Assembly: GCA_011525845.1 (NCBI GenBank) | Contig: WYBP01000008.1 | Span: forward strand, 1 to 64,000 | Source: Gemmatimonadaceae bacterium | GTDB taxonomy: Bacteria; Gemmatimonadota; Gemmatimonadetes; Gemmatimonadales; Gemmatimonadaceae | DNA length: 64,000 nt | Direction of reading: 5' to 3' | Part shown: positions 9,492 through 18,929 of the stretch, piece after piece | Numbering within the stretch: position 1 is the first letter of the stretch | Layout of the letters: each line of letters starts with the position of its first letter | The notes under the pieces: model-generated | Databases searched by the model: none | The model's input: the letters and a program-made list of their open reading frames with translations, nothing else | What the model was told of the DNA's origin: nothing | Position numbers and translations under genes: made by a program

Positions 9492-12128
9492 GTGTCACAG
9501 TGTGCCCTTCTCGTCGCCACCGGCCTCGCCCTCCTCGGCGCAAGCGCCTGCACCCCCGCGCCGCGCGACCCCGAGCCCGGCGTGGCCCGCGCGCTCGCCG
9601 AGCAGCGCGCGCAGACGATCTCGGACCTGCACTACCAGGTCGATCTGTACGTGCCCGCGGAACGCGACTCCGCCGTCACGGGGGAGATCACGATCTCGTT
9701 CGCGCTCAGCGACGCCCGACGCCCGCTCGTGCTCGACTTCCGCGCCCCCCGCGACCACGTGCGCCGCGTGCGGCTCGACGGCGACTCGGTGGCGTACTCC
9801 CTCCCCGAGGATCACATCGTGATCCCGGCGTCGGCGCTCAACGAGGGAGTGCACACGGTCACCGTGGGATTCCGGTCGACGGACGCGGCGCTCAACCGCA
9901 ACGCGGACTTCCTCTACGCCCTCTTCGTCCCCGACCGCGCCTCCACCGCTTTTCCCGTCTTCGAGCAGCCCGACCTCAAGGCGCGCTTCCGGCTCGCGAT
10001 CTCTGTACCGGCGGGCTGGCAGGCGCTGAGCAATGGCGCCGAGACGCGCCGCGAGCGCGTGACCGTGGTCGCGAGCACCGGTGGCATGCTGGAGGAGCCC
10101 ACGAGGGAGACGATCTTCTTCGCCGAGACGGAGCCGATCAGCACCTACCTCTTCGCGTTCGCCGCGGGCCGGATGCAGGCCGAGCGTGCCGTGCGCGACG
10201 GGCGCACCTTCACGATGTACCATCGCGAGACCGACGCCGCGAAGCTCGCGCGGAACCGCGACGCGATCTTCGACCTGCACGCCACGGCGCTCCGCTGGCT
10301 CGAGGAGTACACGGGGATCCCGTACCCGTTCGGGAAGTTCGACTTCTTCGCCGTGCCCTCGTTCCAGTTCGGCGGGATGGAGCATCCGGGCGCGATCTGG
10401 TACCGCGCGGACGGGCTCTTCCTGGACCCCACCGCGACGCGCAACCAGGAGCTGGGGCGCGCGAGCCTGATCGCCCACGAGACCGCGCACATGTGGTTCG
10501 GCGACCTCGTCACGATGCGCTGGTTCAACGACGTCTGGATGAAGGAGGTCTTCGCGAACTTCATGGCGGCGAAGATCGCGGGGCCCGCGTTCCCCGACAT
10601 CAACCTCGACCTCCGCTTCTTCCAGGCGCACCACCCCACGGCGTACGGGGTGGACCGCACGGCGGGCGCGAACCCCATCCGGCAGGAGCTCGAGAACCTG
10701 CGCGAGGCGGGGTCGCTCTACGGCGCGATCATCTACCAGAAGGCGCCGATCGTGATGAAGCAGCTGGAGCAGCTCGTGGGCGAGGAGGCGATGCGCGACG
10801 GATTGCGCGAGTACCTCGCGCAGCACCGGTTCGGGAACGCCACCTGGCCCGACCTCATCGCGGTGCTCGACGCGCGCACGCCCGAGGACCTCGCGGCGTG
10901 GAGCCGCGCCTGGGTGGAGGAACCACGCCGGCCGCGCATCACGGCGCGCTGGGCGGACTCAGGCGTGGTGCTCGCGCAGCGTGACCCGCTCCCCGACCGC
11001 GCCCTGCGCTGGACGCAGCCGATCGTCCTCGCCTTCGACTCGGCGGGCACGGTCGCGAACCGGCGCGTCGCGCTCCGCGAGGCGCAGGTGTTCGTCCCGA
11101 TGCCGGGGGTGACCTCGCCCTCGTTCATCCTCCCCGGCGCCGACGGCGTGGGGTACGGACGCTTCCTCCTCGATTCCGCGAGCCGCGCCACGCTGCTCGC
11201 GCGCACCACCACGCTGCGCGACCCGGTGCAGCGCGCGGTGGCCTGGCAGACGCTCCACGAGGAGATGCTCGACGGATTCCTGCCCCCTGCGACGCTCCTC
11301 GAGTCGGGACTCGCGGCGCTCGCGGCGGAGCGCGAGGAGCTCGTGCAGTTGCAGGTGCTGGGCCTCGTGCGCGGGGTGTACTGGCGCTTCCTCTCCGACT
11401 CCGTGCGCCGCGCGCTCGCGCCCCGCGTGGAGGCCGCGCTCTGGCGCGAGCTCGACCGCGCGCCGACGCCGGGCCGGAAGGGGGCGTTCTTCTCCGCGAT
11501 CGTGGGCAGCACGCTCACCGCGGAGGGCACCGCACGACTCGAGCGGATCTGGAACAAGGCCGAGACGCCGCGCGGGCTCCCCCTGGCCGAGCAGCAGTAC
11601 ATCGGGCTCGCCGAGGCGCTCGCGATCCGCGGCGTGCCGAACGCCGAGCGGATCCTCGATGAGCAGGAGGGGCGCGTGACCAACCCCGACCGCCGGCAGC
11701 GGATGCGCTTCATGCGCGCCGCGCTCTCGGCCGACGTGCGCGTGCGCGACTCGCTCTTCGCCACCTTCCGCGAGGTGGAGAACCGGCGGCGGGAGTCCTG
11801 GGTGCTCGACGCGATGGCGGCGATGAACCATCCGCTCCGCGCCACGGCGGCGCTCCCCAACCTCACCGCGAGTCTGGACCTCGTGCTCCCCATCCAGCAG
11901 ACGGGGGACATCTTCTTCCCGCTGCGGTGGCTGAACGCGACGCTGGACGGGCACCAGTCGGCGGCCGCGGCCTCGGCGGTGGAGGCGTTCCTGGCCGCGC
12001 ACCCGGACTACCCGCCGCGCCTCAGGGGGAAGGTGCTCCAGGCCGCGGATGACCTGTACCGCTCGGCGACGATCGTGGAGGGATGGACGCCGGCGGCAGG
12101 GCGTGCCAGGCCAGCAGCACGACCGTGA
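9492..12128 (+). CDS. Lipoprotein M1-family metallo-aminopeptidase
   Basis: 878 residues from the GTG at 9492, which puts a lipoprotein signal (hydrophobic stretch ending GASAC) at the N-terminus; an upstream in-frame ATG would add an unlikely Arg-rich leader. The gluzincin core is clear: GGMEHPGAIWY (the GAMEN-like exopeptidase loop), zinc motif HETAH followed by the downstream Glu in WMKEVFANF. An N-terminal beta domain and C-terminal helical repeats complete the family layout. It probably trims peptides at the outer envelope. The 3' end overlaps the convergent heme A synthase gene by 107 bp. Confidence 0.93.
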   Translation: MSQCALLVATGLALLGASACTPAPRDPEPGVARALAEQRAQTISDLHYQVDLYVPAERDSAVTGEITISFALSDARRPLVLDFRAPRDHVRRVRLDGDSVAYSLPEDHIVIPASALNEGVHTVTVGFRSTDAALNRNADFLYALFVPDRASTAFPVFEQPDLKARFRLAISVPAGWQALSNGAETRRERVTVVASTGGMLEEPTRETIFFAETEPISTYLFAFAAGRMQAERAVRDGRTFTMYHRETDAAKLARNRDAIFDLHATALRWLEEYTGIPYPFGKFDFFAVPSFQFGGMEHPGAIWYRADGLFLDPTATRNQELGRASLIAHETAHMWFGDLVTMRWFNDVWMKEVFANFMAAKIAGPAFPDINLDLRFFQAHHPTAYGVDRTAGANPIRQELENLREAGSLYGAIIYQKAPIVMKQLEQLVGEEAMRDGLREYLAQHRFGNATWPDLIAVLDARTPEDLAAWSRAWVEEPRRPRITARWADSGVVLAQRDPLPDRALRWTQPIVLAFDSAGTVANRRVALREAQVFVPMPGVTSPSFILPGADGVGYGRFLLDSASRATLLARTTTLRDPVQRAVAWQTLHEEMLDGFLPPATLLESGLAALAAEREELVQLQVLGLVRGVYWRFLSDSVRRALAPRVEAALWRELDRAPTPGRKGAFFSAIVGSTLTAEGTARLERIWNKAETPRGLPLAEQQYIGLAEALAIRGVPNAERILDEQEGRVTNPDRRQRMRFMRAALSADVRVRDSLFATFREVENRRRESWVLDAMAAMNHPLRATAALPNLTASLDLVLPIQQTGDIFFPLRWLNATLDGHQSAAAASAVEAFLAAHPDYPPRLRGKVLQAADDLYRSATIVEGWTPAAGRARPAARP

Positions 12129-13137
12129 GGAGGAGGACCGCACCTCCCTGGTGCGCGACGCCCAGGGAGATCGGGACCGCGAGGAGCAGGGTGGTGACGC
12201 CGAGCGCGAACTGCAGGAGCACGACCCCGAGCATCGCGTGGACGCGCACGCGGAACCGGGCGTCGGTGGTGGTGCGATGCCGCCACCAGGTGGCGAGCAC
12301 GGCGAGCAGGGTGACGGTGGCGAGGAGGCGATGGTCGAACTGCACCGCGCCATGGTTCTCGAAGAGGTTCCGCCACCAGGGGTCCATGCTCGCGTAGCCG
12401 GGCGGGACGAGCCCGTCGCCCATGAACGGGAACGAGTTGTAGACCTTGCCGGCGCGCAGGCCGGCGACGAGCGCGCCGCTGAACGCCGTGAGGAGCACGA
12501 GGCCGGTGAGCGCGCCGAAGGTCCGCCCCCGGCCGCGCTCCGGGGGTGCCTCGCCCGCAGGCAGGTCCGCCGCGCGCAGGAGGTCGGCCGCGGTCCAGAC
12601 CGTGAGCGCGAAGAGGATGAGCGCCATCGAGAGGTGCGCGGCGAGCCGGTACTGGCTCACCTCCGTGCGCACGCTGAGGCCGCTCGCCACCATCCACCAT
12701 CCCATCGCGCCCTGTGCCGCGAGGAGCGCGAGCAGGGTGGCGAGCGTCGGGGCGAGCGCGCGCGGGATGCGCCGGCGGAGCGCGAACCAGATCAGCGGAA
12801 GGAGGAAGGCGGCGCCCACGAGACGGGCGATGATGCGGTGCACGAACTCCCAGAGGTAGATGCGCTTGAAGCCGGCGAGGTCCATGTCCGGGTTCATCTG
12901 CGCGTACTGCGGGATCCGGCGGTACTTCGCGAACTCCTCCTCCCACTGCGCCTCGGAGAGCGGCGGCACCACGCCGGTGACCGGCTTCCACTCCGTGATC
13001 GAGAGGCCGCTCTCCGTGAGGCGCGTGGCGCCGCCCACGACGACCGTGAGGAAGACGAGGAAGGCCCAGGCCGCGAGCCAGCGGCCGAGCGCGCGGGCGT
13101 CCCCGCGGTCGATCGAGCGGAGAAGGTCGCGGGTCAC
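12022..13137 (-). CDS. ctaA: Heme A synthase (CtaA/COX15)
   Basis: 371 residues, eight predicted helices. It converts heme O to heme A for heme-copper oxidases. Family signs: GGATRLTESGLSITEWKPV, the helix-II histidine region EFVHRIIARLVG, AQGAMGWWMVASGL, RLAAHLSMAL, and GAVQFDHRLLAT. Its presence beside the oxidase genes suggests the oxidase uses heme A. The start is a GTG at 13137. The Pro-rich C-terminal tail (about the last 25 residues) is encoded within the overlap with the convergent peptidase gene and may be dispensable. Confidence 0.95.
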   Translation of the reverse strand: MTRDLLRSIDRGDARALGRWLAAWAFLVFLTVVVGGATRLTESGLSITEWKPVTGVVPPLSEAQWEEEFAKYRRIPQYAQMNPDMDLAGFKRIYLWEFVHRIIARLVGAAFLLPLIWFALRRRIPRALAPTLATLLALLAAQGAMGWWMVASGLSVRTEVSQYRLAAHLSMALILFALTVWTAADLLRAADLPAGEAPPERGRGRTFGALTGLVLLTAFSGALVAGLRAGKVYNSFPFMGDGLVPPGYASMDPWWRNLFENHGAVQFDHRLLATVTLLAVLATWWRHRTTTDARFRVRVHAMLGVVLLQFALGVTTLLLAVPISLGVAHQGGAVLLLTVVLLAWHALPPASIPPRSSPSGTGHPRPGAPSP

Positions 13138-13158: not shown

Positions 13159-13206
13159 GTCATGGCGTGAGTCAGGGCGTGTGTCAGGGCGTGTGTCAGG
13201 GCGTGG
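13159..13206. repeat. Four tandem 12-bp repeats
   Basis: Units GTCATGGCGTGA, GTCAGGGCGTGT, GTCAGGGCGTGT, GTCAGGGCGTGG run from the end of the exported-protein gene into the spacer before ctaA. One unit contains the stop codon of that gene (13196-13198). Because 12 is a multiple of three, extra copies would keep frame. Confidence 0.8.
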
Positions 13207-13816
13207 GTCGCACCGCGCGCAGGGTGCGCGTGGCGCCGTCGTAGGTCACGAGCACCACTTCGCGCGCGCCGAGCGTGACCGACTCGCGCAGTTCGAGGAG
13301 CGGCGGGACCTCGCCGTCGTGGCGGCGCGTGCGCGCGGAGTCCGCCGGCGGCTGCTCCGCCGTGACGGCCGCGACGGCCGTGGCGGCCGTGTCGAGGCGG
13401 GCGAGGCGGACCTCGATCGTGGAGCGCCCTGCCGGGATCGCGGTCTCGTGGAAGACGTAGAGCTGCCGGTCGCTGCGCATCCCGCCCCCGCGCAACCGTT
13501 CGCGCGAGAGCACCTCGCCGTCGCGGCGCACCTCCAGCTCGTACTGCGCCGTGGTCCCCTCGCAGGAGACGGGTTGCCGCATGTGCGCGGGGAGCGCCTC
13601 CAACTCGGCGGGCGTGAGCGTGCGGCAGACCTCGATGCGCTCCGGGCGCGCAGCGAAGGCCACGCGCAGCACGGCCCCGGTGCCGTCCTCGAGGGTGAGG
13701 GGCACGTGCGAGCCGTGGGCGATCCCGACCGCCGCCGCGAGCGCGAGGGCGGCGCCGGCGATGCGCGAGCGCAGGCCGGGGGAGGTGCGGGGCGGGGTCG
13801 GAGGGGGCGCGGTCAC
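13196..13816 (-). CDS. Exported/anchored protein of the respiratory locus, unknown function
   Basis: 206 residues from a GTG at 13816 that overlaps the stop of the cytochrome b fusion gene (GTGA). A Pro-rich N-terminus is followed by one hydrophobic segment (about 20-37) and then a mainly beta, soluble domain with two cysteines (VCRTLTP and VSCEGT). The domain probably faces the periplasm. Coupling to the cytochrome b gene and the position before ctaA suggest an accessory role in the same respiratory complex. I recognise no family. The 3' end lies in 12-bp tandem repeats. Confidence 0.75.
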   Translation of the reverse strand: MTAPPPTPPRTSPGLRSRIAGAALALAAAVGIAHGSHVPLTLEDGTGAVLRVAFAARPERIEVCRTLTPAELEALPAHMRQPVSCEGTTAQYELEVRRDGEVLSRERLRGGGMRSDRQLYVFHETAIPAGRSTIEVRLARLDTAATAVAAVTAEQPPADSARTRRHDGEVPPLLELRESVTLGAREVVLVTYDGATRTLRAVRPTP

Positions 13817-15384
13817 TCGCGGGGCCCGGTGAGCTCGACGTCGCATTCCGCACCGACCTCCCCCGGATCGGCGGCGACGGCGCCGAGGGGACGGGTGTCG
13901 GCGACGAAGTCGCGGAGCGCGGCGACCGCGTCCGCGCCCTCAGCGGCGTTCGCGTAGGCGACGCGCACCCGGCTGCGGTCCACGCGTGCCTGCAGCTCGG
14001 CCTCGCGGTCGTGGTACATCCGCTCGAGCAGCCAGCGCGGGCCCTCGCGGTTCCAGCAGTCGCGGGGCGGGCAGGCGACCACGAGCACGCCGGCCGAGCC
14101 GTTGCGCACCAGGAGCTCGACGACGGAGGTGTGCAGGTTGCCGGCGCAGTCCACGGGCAGCAGCGCGGCGCCCTCGCCGCGGATGGCGTCGCCCCACCGG
14201 GAGGCGCCCCGGTCGCAGGCGACGACCACGTGCTCGCCCGCGCGGCGCTCCGGCGACTCGATGAAGGCGCGCACCTCCGCGAGCTGGTCCCGCCCCGTGC
14301 GCCCCGGCGGGCCGACGCCCATCGGCGCGCAGGAGCCGGCGCAGATCCCGCAGCTCACGCAGCGCGCGGGGTCCACGCGCGCCACGAGCTCGGATCGGCC
14401 CCCCGGCGCGCGCGTGATCATCGCGATCGCGTCGTACGGGCAATCGGCGGCGCACTGCTCGCACCCCACGCAGATCTCCTCGTCCACCGTCGAGGGAGGG
14501 GCCGCGCGGTCGCCCCGGCGCCGGGTGAGCAGCGGCACGGCGGCGAGGAGCGCGACGGCGCCGGCGGCCGCGAGGAGCGCGCCGCCCCCGCTCATCCGCC
14601 GCGCGAACGGGATCCAGAACCCGAAGAAGAGGTCCACCGGCACCGTCGCCGGGATCGTGAAGGGACTGGCCTCCGGCAGCATCGTGATCGGGATGGCCAG
14701 CGAGATCGCCAGCAGCGCGCCCACCACGCCGTAACCGAGCGGCTTGGGCGGGAGGAGCGCCGGTCGTGCGACGCGCGAGATGTGCAGCCAGAGCCCGATG
14801 CCGAGCGCGAGCGGGATCCCGATGTGCGCGAAGAGGTTCAGGAAGAAGAACGCGGGCGGGAGTGGCCGTTCGCCGGTGAAGGCGCGGCTGGTGGGCTCCG
14901 AGAGCACCGGGAGCGCGTCAAGCATCCGCGCGCCCTCGCGGGCGAGCGTCTGGCCGAAGGTGTCCCACACCATCACGTACCCGGTCCACCCGCAGAGCAT
15001 CAGGAGGACGAGGAGGCCGACGCCGGTGACCCAGGCGAGCGCGCGCGGTCCCCAGCTGCGCCCCTGGGCGTACATCCGGAACGCGTGGACGATCGTGGCG
15101 AGCACGGCCGCGTCGCTCGCGTAGCGGTGCATGCCGCGCATCCAGTTGCCGACCCAGCGGTCCGCGGTGATCCGCTCCACCGACGCCCAGGGCGCGCCGA
15201 CGCGATAGAAGAGGATCAGCCAGAGCCCCGTCACGAGGATCACCAGGAGGAGCGCGATGACGATCGTGCCGCTCTGGTAGAGCGGGTTCGCGCGCCAGCC
15301 GTAGAGCCGGTTGGCGAGGGCGTCCGCCCGGGCGAGCGCGCGGAACGCGACGCGTTCCGTCGGGGGTCGGGTGGTGGCGCTCAC
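13813..15384 (-). CDS. Cytochrome b - two [4Fe-4S] - MvhD/FlpD fusion protein
   Basis: 523 residues, three modules. Residues 1-210 are a cytochrome b core with heme-ligand pairs His86/His100 and His187/His201, each 14 apart as in bc complexes. Residues 215-285 keep remnants of the C-terminal cytochrome b helices (SPFTIPATV) without a PEWY motif. Two ferredoxin clusters follow: Cys305, 308, 311, 315 and Cys342, 345, 348, 352. Residues about 380-480 resemble the MvhD/FlpD hydrogenase delta subunit (VVVACDRGAS, LLPVDCAGNLHTS, VVACPPRDCWNREG). It probably moves electrons between a soluble carrier and membrane hemes feeding the divergent oxidase. GTG start at 15384. Confidence 0.88.
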   Translation of the reverse strand: MSATTRPPTERVAFRALARADALANRLYGWRANPLYQSGTIVIALLLVILVTGLWLILFYRVGAPWASVERITADRWVGNWMRGMHRYASDAAVLATIVHAFRMYAQGRSWGPRALAWVTGVGLLVLLMLCGWTGYVMVWDTFGQTLAREGARMLDALPVLSEPTSRAFTGERPLPPAFFFLNLFAHIGIPLALGIGLWLHISRVARPALLPPKPLGYGVVGALLAISLAIPITMLPEASPFTIPATVPVDLFFGFWIPFARRMSGGGALLAAAGAVALLAAVPLLTRRRGDRAAPPSTVDEEICVGCEQCAADCPYDAIAMITRAPGGRSELVARVDPARCVSCGICAGSCAPMGVGPPGRTGRDQLAEVRAFIESPERRAGEHVVVACDRGASRWGDAIRGEGAALLPVDCAGNLHTSVVELLVRNGSAGVLVVACPPRDCWNREGPRWLLERMYHDREAELQARVDRSRVRVAYANAAEGADAVAALRDFVADTRPLGAVAADPGEVGAECDVELTGPRE

Positions 15385-15551: not shown

Positions 15552-15722
15552 ATGCCAGATCCGGTGAAACCAGACGAAGCCGCCGAGCAGGTCCCGCTCG
15601 GGCAGCGCCTGTTCGACAATGTCTTCCTCCTGCTCGGCCTCGGTCTCCTCGTGGTCTTCGTCCTGTACACGGGATGGGGCCTCTGGGAGATCCTGACGTT
15701 GCCCCAGGCAACCCTACCCTGA
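15552..15722 (+). CDS. Small single-helix oxidase subunit (IIa-like)
   Basis: 56 residues from the ATG at 15552, which has GGAG just upstream; an upstream ATG at 15486 would add an unlikely leader. A charged N-terminus is followed by one membrane helix (about 24-45, LLLGLGLLVVFVLYTGW). Position directly before the CuA subunit and this architecture match the small subunit IIa of ba3-type heme-copper oxidases, which stabilises the complex. The sequence is too short for a firm family call. Confidence 0.7.
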   Translation: MPDPVKPDEAAEQVPLGQRLFDNVFLLLGLGLLVVFVLYTGWGLWEILTLPQATLP

Positions 15723-15727
15723 CCGCC

Positions 15728-16312
15728 ATGCATACCGAGACGCACACGGGGCTCGAGTCCCCGAAGGGGATCTGGTGGAAGCCCGCCCACAAGTCGGAGA
15801 AGGTCTGGGTCGGGATCGCGTTCGCGTGGTGCATGGTGCTCTTCGCCATGATGCCGCTCTGGCACTGGAAGGGAGGGCAGAACCCGTCGGGCATCCGGCG
15901 CCGCGTGGAGCCCGCCGCCTTCTTCGCCCGCACGCAGGAGTTCATCCAGCAATACCAGGTGGACACCGACCGCGGCATGCCGATCGTGGCGCCGCCGCCG
16001 GGCTCGGACATCTACCTCACGGGGATGAGCTTCCAGTGGACGCCGATCCTCAAGCTCCAGAAGGGCGCGGAGTACATCCTGCACCTGTCCGCCCTCGACG
16101 TGAACCACGGGTTCTCGCTCTACCCGATCAACGTGAACTTCCAGGTGATCCCCGGCTATGACTACGGGCTCCGCATCACGCCCAACGCCTCCGGCGACTT
16201 CCGCATCATCTGCAACGAGTTCTGCGGCATCGGGCACCACACGATGGTGGGGCGCGTGATCGTCGAGGATGCGCCCGCCACCGGGACGCCCGGCACGGGA
16301 GGCACGCCATGA
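15728..16312 (+). CDS. Heme-copper oxidase subunit II with CuA site
   Basis: 194 residues. One N-terminal membrane helix (about 26-45) is followed by a periplasmic cupredoxin domain. The binuclear CuA ligands are complete: the histidine in ALDVNHGF and the CNEFCGIGHHTM motif (Cys, Glu carbonyl, Cys, His, Met). It takes electrons from cytochrome c or another donor and passes them to subunit I. The ATG at 15728 lies 5 bp after the small subunit gene; the last codon overlaps the start of subunit I (ATGA). The presence of only one helix is typical of ba3-like enzymes. Confidence 0.92.
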   Translation: MHTETHTGLESPKGIWWKPAHKSEKVWVGIAFAWCMVLFAMMPLWHWKGGQNPSGIRRRVEPAAFFARTQEFIQQYQVDTDRGMPIVAPPPGSDIYLTGMSFQWTPILKLQKGAEYILHLSALDVNHGFSLYPINVNFQVIPGYDYGLRITPNASGDFRIICNEFCGIGHHTMVGRVIVEDAPATGTPGTGGTP

Positions 16313-18048
16313 CCGCCCCCGCCGCGACCTTCCGCACCTGCCCGGTCACCACGCGCCGGATCCACGACCAGGCCGAGTCGCTGGTCAAGATCAACGCCGT
16401 CGTCTCGGTGGTCGCGCTCCTGATCGGGGCGATCGCCGCCGTGCTGATCGTCCTCACGCGCTGGCAGGCGGTGCACCTCCTCTCCGCCACCTGGTTCTAC
16501 CGGCTGCTCGGCGTGCACGGGATGAGCATGCTCATCTTCTTCATCGTGTTCTTCGAGATGGCCGTGCTGTACTTCGCCAGCACCGCGCTGATCAATGCGC
16601 GACTGGTGGCGCCCAAGCTCGCCTGGTTCTCCTTCCTCCTGATGCTCGGGGGCGCGGTGCTGGTGGAGGCGATGATGTGGGGCGGGAAGGCCGACGTCCT
16701 CTTCACCTCGTACGTGCCGCTCCGCGCGTCGCCCGCGTACTACCTCGGCATCATCCTCTTCGCCGTGGGAGCGCTGATCGTCACGGGGATCTTCTTCGCG
16801 AACCTCGTGGTGGCCAAGCGGGAGAAGCGCTACGAGGGGTCGCTGCCGCTCGTGGTCTATGGCGCCGTCACGGCGGCGATCATCACGGTGATCACCCTGC
16901 TGCACGGGGCGGCGATCTACATCCCGACCTTCCTCTGGTCGCTGGGGCTCATGCACGTGGATCCCCAGGTGTACCGGATGGTCTGGTGGGGGCTCGGGCA
17001 CTCGTCGCAGCAGATCAACGTGGCCGCGATGGTCGCGATCTGGTACATGCTCGGCGGGCTCACGATCGGCGCGGTGGTGCTGAACGAGAAGATCAGCCGC
17101 TCCGCCTTCGTGCTCTACGTGCTCTTCATCTCGATGGCGTCGGCCCACCACCTGCTGGTGGACCCGGGGATGGGGCCCGCGTGGAAGGTCGTGAACACGA
17201 GCTACTTCATGTACATGGCCGTGCTCGCGTCGATGATCCACGGCTTCACCGTCCCGGCCGGCATGGAGCTCGGGATGCGGCTCCGCGGCTACACCAACGG
17301 CATGTTCGACTGGCTCCGGCGCGCCCCCTGGCACGACCCCGGGTTCAGCTCGCTCGTGCTCTCCGTGGTCGTCTTCGGGTTCGTCGGGGGCATCACCGGC
17401 GTGACCATCGGCACGGAGCAGATCAACATCATCGTGCACAACACGCTGCGCGTGCCGGGGCACTTCCATGCGACCGTCGTGAGCGGCACGGCGATGGCGT
17501 TCATGGGCGCGACCTACTACCTGATCCCGCTGGTCTTCCAGAAGCGCGTCGCGTTCTGGCGGATGGCGCAGTGGCAGCCCTACATCTTCGCGGGCGGGAT
17601 GTTCATCTTCACGCTCTCGATGACCTTCGCCGGGAGCTTCGGCGTGCCGCGCCGCCACTGGGACATCACCTTCAGCCAGGCGCCGTTCGACGTGCCCTTC
17701 AGCCCGGTGGTGGACCTCGTGCTGGCGGTGGTGGCGGTCGGTGGGCTCCTCGCCGCGACGGGGGCCTTCATGTTCGTGGCCATCGCGGTGGCGTCGGTCT
17801 TCTTCGGGAAGCCCCTCGGGGAGATCACGAAGGGGACGGCGATGGTCGGCGTGCCGCAGGGCATCACGCACCCGCCGGTGCACGCGGCCGACGTGGACGC
17901 GCGGAACGCGGCGCTGCACGCGCCCGGGCGCGGGATCATGGGTCCGGCCCCGGGGACGATCGTGCTGGTCTTCGTCTTCCTCGCGGCGTTCATCCTCTAC
18001 TTCTTCGTGAACTGGAAGATCCTCTCCTTCGTGTGGAAGATCGGATGA
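16309..18048 (+). CDS. Heme-copper oxidase subunit I, B-type-like, active-site Tyr replaced by Gln
   Basis: 579 residues, about 13 membrane helices. Low-spin heme and metal ligands are visible: LLGVHGMS (helix II), GLGHSSQQIN (helix VI copper ligand), SAHHLLVDPGM (helix VII His pair) and PGHFHATVVSG (helix X heme ligands). In oxygen reductases of the A and B types helix VI reads HPxVY, with the Tyr cross-linked to His; here the motif is HSSQQ, with Gln at the Tyr position. This change is associated with nitric oxide reductase-type members of the superfamily, so this may reduce NO rather than oxygen. The gene overlaps subunit II and the SCO gene by 4 bp each. Confidence 0.9.
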   Translation: MTAPAATFRTCPVTTRRIHDQAESLVKINAVVSVVALLIGAIAAVLIVLTRWQAVHLLSATWFYRLLGVHGMSMLIFFIVFFEMAVLYFASTALINARLVAPKLAWFSFLLMLGGAVLVEAMMWGGKADVLFTSYVPLRASPAYYLGIILFAVGALIVTGIFFANLVVAKREKRYEGSLPLVVYGAVTAAIITVITLLHGAAIYIPTFLWSLGLMHVDPQVYRMVWWGLGHSSQQINVAAMVAIWYMLGGLTIGAVVLNEKISRSAFVLYVLFISMASAHHLLVDPGMGPAWKVVNTSYFMYMAVLASMIHGFTVPAGMELGMRLRGYTNGMFDWLRRAPWHDPGFSSLVLSVVVFGFVGGITGVTIGTEQINIIVHNTLRVPGHFHATVVSGTAMAFMGATYYLIPLVFQKRVAFWRMAQWQPYIFAGGMFIFTLSMTFAGSFGVPRRHWDITFSQAPFDVPFSPVVDLVLAVVAVGGLLAATGAFMFVAIAVASVFFGKPLGEITKGTAMVGVPQGITHPPVHAADVDARNAALHAPGRGIMGPAPGTIVLVFVFLAAFILYFFVNWKILSFVWKIG

Positions 18049-18929
18049 CGACGGCTCCGCGGACGGGGACGGCGCTCACCGCGCTGGGCGTGATCCTGGT
18101 GATCACGGTCTCGTGGTGGGCGCTCGCCCTCTGGCCGATCGACCCCGGCATGGCGCCGGAGTGGCTGACCCGCACCCGCGAGGTGTGCTTCGGCACCACG
18201 GGGAGCGGACTCCCGAACGCCGGCGGCTGGCTCCTGCTCGTGGGCCAGCCGCTCGGGATGCTGATCGTGCTGGTGGCGGTCTGGGGGAAGGAACTCGCAC
18301 AGGGTGGACGGCGGCTCCTCGGGACCACGCCCGGGCAGCTGCTGGTGGGAGTCTCGGCGGCCCTCCTGCTCGCGGGCGTGGGGGGCGTGGTGCTGCGGGT
18401 GCAGACCGCCGGGGCCGAGCCGTTCGCGTCGTCGCCCACGGAGCGGATGGCGGGCGGGCTGACGCGGGTGAACGACACGCCCCCCACCTTCGCGCTCGTG
18501 GACCAGGCCGGCGACACCATCTCGCTCGACCGGTTCGAAGGGCGGCCGGTGATCGTGACCTTCGCGTTCGCGCACTGCGAGGCGATCTGCCCGCTGATCG
18601 TGAACGACGTGCTGCTCGCGACCTCGCGGCTCGGGGCGCACGACCCGGCGGTGCTGATCCTCACGCTCGACCCCTGGCGCGACACGCCGAGCCGCCTCGC
18701 CTCGATGGCCGAGGCGTGGGGCGTCACGGGGGACGTGCACGTGCTGAGCGGGACGCCCGAGGTGGTGGAGCGGGCGCTCAACGCCTGGCGCGTGCCGCGG
18801 GTGCGCAACGAGCGCACGGGCGACCTGGTCCACCCGGCGCTGGTCTACGTGATCTCGCGCACGGGGCGGATCAGCTACGTCCTGAACGGATCGGCCTCGA
18901 TGATCCAGGCGGCGGTCGAGGCGCTCTGA
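18045..18929 (+). CDS. SCO-type copper chaperone fused to an N-terminal membrane domain
   Basis: 294 residues. Three hydrophobic segments in the first 125 residues precede a thioredoxin-like SCO domain. It carries AHCEAICP (the CxxxC copper site) and the distal His in VHPALVYVI. SCO proteins deliver copper to the CuA centre of subunit II. The ATG overlaps the subunit I stop (ATGA), so all four plus-strand genes form one operon. Usual SCO proteins have one membrane helix; the extra helices here look like a fused small oxidase subunit or anchor. Confidence 0.88.
   Translation: MTTAPRTGTALTALGVILVITVSWWALALWPIDPGMAPEWLTRTREVCFGTTGSGLPNAGGWLLLVGQPLGMLIVLVAVWGKELAQGGRRLLGTTPGQLLVGVSAALLLAGVGGVVLRVQTAGAEPFASSPTERMAGGLTRVNDTPPTFALVDQAGDTISLDRFEGRPVIVTFAFAHCEAICPLIVNDVLLATSRLGAHDPAVLILTLDPWRDTPSRLASMAEAWGVTGDVHVLSGTPEVVERALNAWRVPRVRNERTGDLVHPALVYVISRTGRISYVLNGSASMIQAAVEAL

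Follow-up and report, generated by a model that had tools for sequence, protein, structure and literature searches.

A predicted eNOR-type nitric oxide reductase in a Gemmatimonadaceae genome and its closely linked cytochrome b-ferredoxin-FlpD gene

The eNOR family of nitric oxide reductases is related to the B family of heme-copper enzymes and has been biochemically characterised (PMC11388526); the sources cited for it in PMC8756737 and PMC11388526 are Hemp and Gennis 2008 for the family and Murali et al. 2024 PNAS for its characterisation. It is diagnosed by a Gln residue at the site of the active-site Tyr and by a cupredoxin subunit II encoded immediately upstream of the catalytic subunit (PMC8756737). 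The residue at this site differs between the groups of the superfamily, being Tyr in the oxidases, Glu in cNOR and qNOR, Asn in sNOR and CuANOR/bNOR, Asp in gNOR and Gln in eNOR (PMC8756737 Table A4). In Ardenticatena, eNOR and the nitrite reductase NirK are encoded in one operon (PMC4653789). The eNOR-type enzymes carry cytochrome oxidase subunit annotations in database records.

Here we describe a locus of this type in a Gemmatimonadaceae bacterium (assembly GCA_011525845.1). The window, i.e. the whole stretch of DNA that was analysed, comprises 64,000 nucleotides of contig WYBP01000008.1, and the features of the locus are collected in Table 1. The catalytic subunit I matches the Pfam COX1 family with confidence (E 3e-61). 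A preliminary description of this DNA had claimed that subunit I carries Gln at the helix VI Tyr position together with all six metal-binding His residues, and that the CuA subunit is intact; each of these points is borne out. Helix VI reads WWGLGHSSQQINV, with the CuB ligand His231 followed at +4 by Gln235, which the alignment places at Tyr237 of the B-family ba3 oxidase (GHPIVY). Thus, the cross-linked helix VI Tyr of the B-family oxygen reductases is absent and Gln occupies its place. The metal ligands are His70 (helix II), His231 (helix VI), His280 and His281 (helix VII), and His385 and His387 (helix X); all six are invariant among 16 close relatives, in which Gln235 is conserved as well. 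The gene of subunit II lies directly 5' of that of subunit I and overlaps it by four bases. Its product possesses a complete CuA site, consisting of CNEFCGIGHHTM (the motif is spelled C-N-E-F-C-G-I-G-H-H-T-M) and the His of an upstream NHGF.

Table 1. Features of the predicted eNOR locus (positions in the window)
Feature	Coordinates	Strand	Remarks
CtaA, heme A synthase	12022..13137	-	PF02628, E 2e-109
Family-less protein with a signal-like N-terminus	13196..13846	-	216 aa; follows the cytochrome b gene
Partner protein: cytochrome b6-like (four heme His), 2x[4Fe-4S] ferredoxin and FlpD	13813..15384	-	Pfam
Small single-TM subunit	15552..15722	+	56 aa; size and position like ba3 subunit IIa
Subunit II, one TM helix and CuA cupredoxin domain	15728..16312	+	194 aa; COX2/CoxB matches
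Predicted eNOR catalytic subunit I, Gln235 at the Tyr site	16309..18048	+	579 aa
SCO1/SenC-family copper chaperone	18045..18929	+	PF02630, E 4e-23

Upstream of subunit II we identified a further component of the operon that was absent from the preliminary description, a short ORF whose product found no match in the Pfam search. It is kept in the related loci, including those of Thermomicrobium, Defluviimonas and the Thermus plasmids, with the motif P..QRL.D..FLLL..YT.WG..EI. Within the Gemmatimonadota-type branch the SCO gene comes after that of subunit I at nearly every related locus, and its product probably has a role in CuA assembly. A ctaA gene also lies close to eNOR at several of the other related loci.

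Relatives of subunit I were gathered from public genomes, from the taxonomic class of the window and from plasmids, and were aligned. Gln at +4 (GH-x-x-Q-Q) is present in all aligned relatives with identities between 82% and 43%. These span many genera in several phyla and comprise Gemmatimonadota, records labelled Acidobacteria, Eisenbacteria, Oligoflexia, Spirochaetia and Proteobacteria, and further Thermomicrobium, Defluviimonas and Thermus plasmids. Since Gln is kept throughout the aligned members of the clade, it is neither a chance substitution nor a sequencing error. All aligned B-family oxidases (~30% identity) exhibit Tyr at the same site, and so does the A-family enzyme of this genome, while its own C-family enzyme carries the Tyr on helix VII. 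In the maximum-likelihood tree the Gln-bearing sequences are separated from the others by a branch supported at 100/100, drawn against outgroup branches that are very long; the clade includes the Thermus thermophilus plasmid and Thermomicrobium homologs. The eNOR-like subunit I of L056 (plasmid 4 of Thermus thermophilus TTHNAR1) reads VGHFKG in helix X instead of GHFH, so that Lys replaces the second His, the expected ligand of the low-spin heme. In six other loci (L074-L079, from genomes G069, G024, G113, G028, G031 and G019) the last ~70 residues of the eNOR gene, corresponding to the final helix, match as a separate piece, which may reflect gene fission, an insertion or frame differences. 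Another COX1-family protein (L080:2864-4222, minus strand, in G028:C12) reads GHVIQF in helix VI and lacks the helix VII HH pair for CuB; its heme ligands seem to be retained.

Among proteins of known structure, the best PDB match of subunit I is the ba3 oxidase (E ~2e-42), and a Foldseek comparison of the AlphaFold model likewise found the B-family ba3 oxidase (E 4e-15). The mean pLDDT of this model is 69.8 and falls below 50 at residues 285-317 and 366-382; it was used for the overall fold alone, because it is too weak round the active site for the geometry of Gln235 and Tyr270. The window enzyme shares with the ba3 oxygen reductase of Thermus thermophilus (PDB 1XME/1EHK) the overall fold, the metal ligands, the CuA subunit II and a small single-helix subunit, but at about 25-30% identity it differs in having Gln235 for Tyr237, Val242 for Tyr244 and His311 for Thr312. 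With cNOR and qNOR it shares the proposed reaction (2 NO to N2O) and the lack of a cross-linked Tyr; these enzymes belong to another branch of the superfamily, exhibit Glu instead of Gln at the site (PMC8756737 Table A4) and possess no CuA. Their HLWVEG-type helix VI motif is not found in the window enzyme, which reads GHSSQQ instead. The combination of Gln at the Tyr site, a CuA cupredoxin subunit II immediately upstream and a B-family-like subunit I matches the published description of eNOR, and the window enzyme is therefore best filed there. We put the probability of an eNOR-type NO reductase at roughly 0.88, an assignment made by the published diagnostic features; the enzyme would be a new member of an already described family.

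The genomic context agrees with this assignment. The genome (3.58 Mb, 99.8% complete) encodes NirK (C21:176436-177332, with a C-terminal CxxCH cytochrome c motif) and a clade II NosZ (C12:146257-148059), both above the curated cut-offs; for NirS it yielded sub-threshold matches only. Its other complete heme-copper enzymes comprise only one A-family and one C-family oxidase, and the VHLWVEG motif of cNOR and qNOR was not found in a search for the motif itself rather than for the full family. In the 198 sampled genomes of the class, an HLWVEG-type motif occurs in only two. Two proteins of ~150 aa with COX1-like sequences are encoded beside nirK (L004, C21 near 177830) and beside nosZ (L005, C12 near 148777); they were considered as NO reductases and rejected as partial COX1 matches. 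Inspection by eye assigned the molybdopterin matches to formate dehydrogenase, to a generic Mo enzyme and to an alternative-complex-III-like subunit, hence there is no clear respiratory nitrate reductase in this genome. The route from nitrite through NO and N2O to N2 closes only if eNOR is counted; counted in this way, the nitrite-to-N2 steps are found in this genome and in five more of the 198. In six related loci (L007, L009, L012, L014, L017 and L112) a NirK 65-73% identical to that of this genome is encoded no more than about 7 kb away from the eNOR operon, an association known from the eNOR of Ardenticatena (PMC4653789). The presence of nirK and clade II nosZ, the lack of the cNOR/qNOR motif and the loci in which nirK adjoins the operon, together with the Gln235 clade, thus support the reading as a possible NO reductase that the preliminary description had proposed, as far as sequences can indicate.

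Among the same 198 genomes, eNOR is present in 58, NirK above the cut-off in 27 and NosZ in 64. The nirK genomes are enriched in eNOR (15 of 27, compared with 43 of 171 others; Fisher p=0.0025 by genome and 0.012 by genus), an association inflated by relatedness, which these counts do not fully remove; that between eNOR and NosZ is not significant (p=0.095). Conversely, 43 of the 58 eNOR genomes have no NirK above the cut-off (NirK being the nitrite reductase counted here), hence many hosts may employ the enzyme for detoxification or for the use of external NO. Could the window enzyme, too, be an NO-detoxifying enzyme without a respiratory role? Such a function would involve the same chemistry and overlaps with the respiratory reading; apart from the distribution of NirK, matches to Rrf2-type regulators and DUF542 at some related loci speak for it. 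For the window enzyme we nevertheless consider it rather unlikely, as NirK and NosZ of its own genome flank the reaction, nirK adjoins the operon in several relatives, and the CuA electron entry and the conserved channel-like residues suggest energy conservation. The DUF542 matches lie near the eNOR operons of L106, L115, L015 and L020, those to Rrf2-type regulators near L011, L013, L104, L109 and others, and on the Thermus plasmid L056 both come after eNOR; such neighbours would fit NO-responsive control.

A further question is whether the missing Tyr is supplied from elsewhere, and the preliminary description had pointed to helix VII as a place to look. In the C family the Tyr of helix VII occupies position -6 relative to the first CuB His, as is visible in the genome's own cbb3 enzyme (L002). 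No Tyr is found at this position of subunit I, which is occupied by Ile274, invariant in close relatives; a conserved Tyr270 is located at -10, ten residues upstream of the CuB His. Tyr270 is invariant in close relatives and conserved across the Gln clade, and B-family relatives carry Phe there, which might speak for a B-family oxygen reductase using Tyr270 for the lost Tyr in the fashion of the C family. This is very improbable: on an ideal helix Tyr270 lies one turn (~6 Å) further than the C-family position, published Gln-bearing members are classed as NO reductases, and the genome already possesses an A-family and a C-family oxidase. Because of this displacement we read Tyr270 as a residue that would line a proton path rather than cross-link.

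Residues matching the sites of the ba3 K channel were identified in the alignments as Gln235, Val242, Tyr246, Ser308 and His311, with Glu24 in subunit II. Their ba3 counterparts we take to be Tyr237, Tyr244, Tyr248, Ser309 and Thr312, respectively, with Glu15 of subunit II corresponding to Glu24. Tyr246, Ser308, His311 and Glu24 are conserved at or near the channel positions, Tyr246 and Ser308 being a further likeness to the ba3 enzyme, and Glu24, a candidate for the channel entry, is common to all aligned homologs of subunit II.

An even less probable alternative is that the enzyme belongs to another Tyr-less B-family NOR group, i.e. sNOR, bNOR, gNOR or nNOR, all of which have been described as B-family-related (PMC11388526), with cupredoxin second subunits in sNOR and gNOR (PMC8756737), but the Asn of sNOR and CuANOR/bNOR and the Asp of gNOR disagree with the Gln found here.

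As an eNOR, i.e. a B-family-derived, CuA-containing NO reductase, the enzyme would receive electrons from a periplasmic carrier at CuA of subunit II and pass them to the low-spin heme (His70/His387) and then to the site formed in subunit I by the high-spin heme (His385) and CuB (His231, His280, His281), where two NO would be reduced to N2O. With Gln235 in place of the cross-linked Tyr, the extra donor of an electron and a proton with which oxygen reductases split the O-O bond would be missing. Protons probably come from the cytoplasm via a modified K-type channel comprising Glu24 of subunit II, Tyr246, Ser308, His311 and perhaps Tyr270; with protons taken from that side, the reaction would be electrogenic. 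For the window enzyme the NO reduction, its electrogenicity, the proton route and the electron donor are proposed by analogy with published work on the family.

Less expected was the co-occurrence of eNOR with the partner gene, which is transcribed divergently from the operon. Both are present in 55 of the 198 genomes and neither in 138, with eNOR alone in three and the partner alone in two, and in all 51 cases where they share a contig the distance between them is 0.9-1.6 kb. Among the five exceptions, G007, G052 and G192 lie at contig ends, G061 (L072) carries a distant eNOR, and in G180 eNOR seems to be truly missing. In an alignment of 45 partner sequences, drawn from several phyla, conservation of the four heme His and of the cluster Cys residues exceeds 90%. 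In other phyla the partner gene is located downstream of the SCO gene, and a domain similar to the family-less protein of Table 1 follows the cytochrome b protein or is fused to its C-terminus. Beside the more distant eNORs of Thermus and Thermomicrobium, no copy of the partner was found. The Gemmatimonadota-type branch seems to differ from the described eNOR by two additions, the cytochrome b-ferredoxin-FlpD protein with its tight linkage and the family-less (DUF) protein. It is possible, although short of probable, that the partner is a dedicated, undescribed factor of this eNOR branch, which either couples NO reduction to the quinone pool and to a cytosolic iron-sulfur donor or acts as an NO sensor via its clusters. 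The linked gene offers a specific and testable entry point to the question of how this branch of NO reductases is powered or regulated.

The enzyme resembles an oxygen-using respiratory oxidase, yet it falls into a family that converts NO to N2O. In its own genome eNOR would supply the middle step between nitrite reductase and nitrous oxide reductase, bridging NirK (nitrite to NO) and NosZ (N2O to N2). Gemmatimonadota have been reported as abundant carriers of nosZ in soil; the assignment to eNOR therefore bears on whether such bacteria are a sink of N2O only, or may both make and use it.
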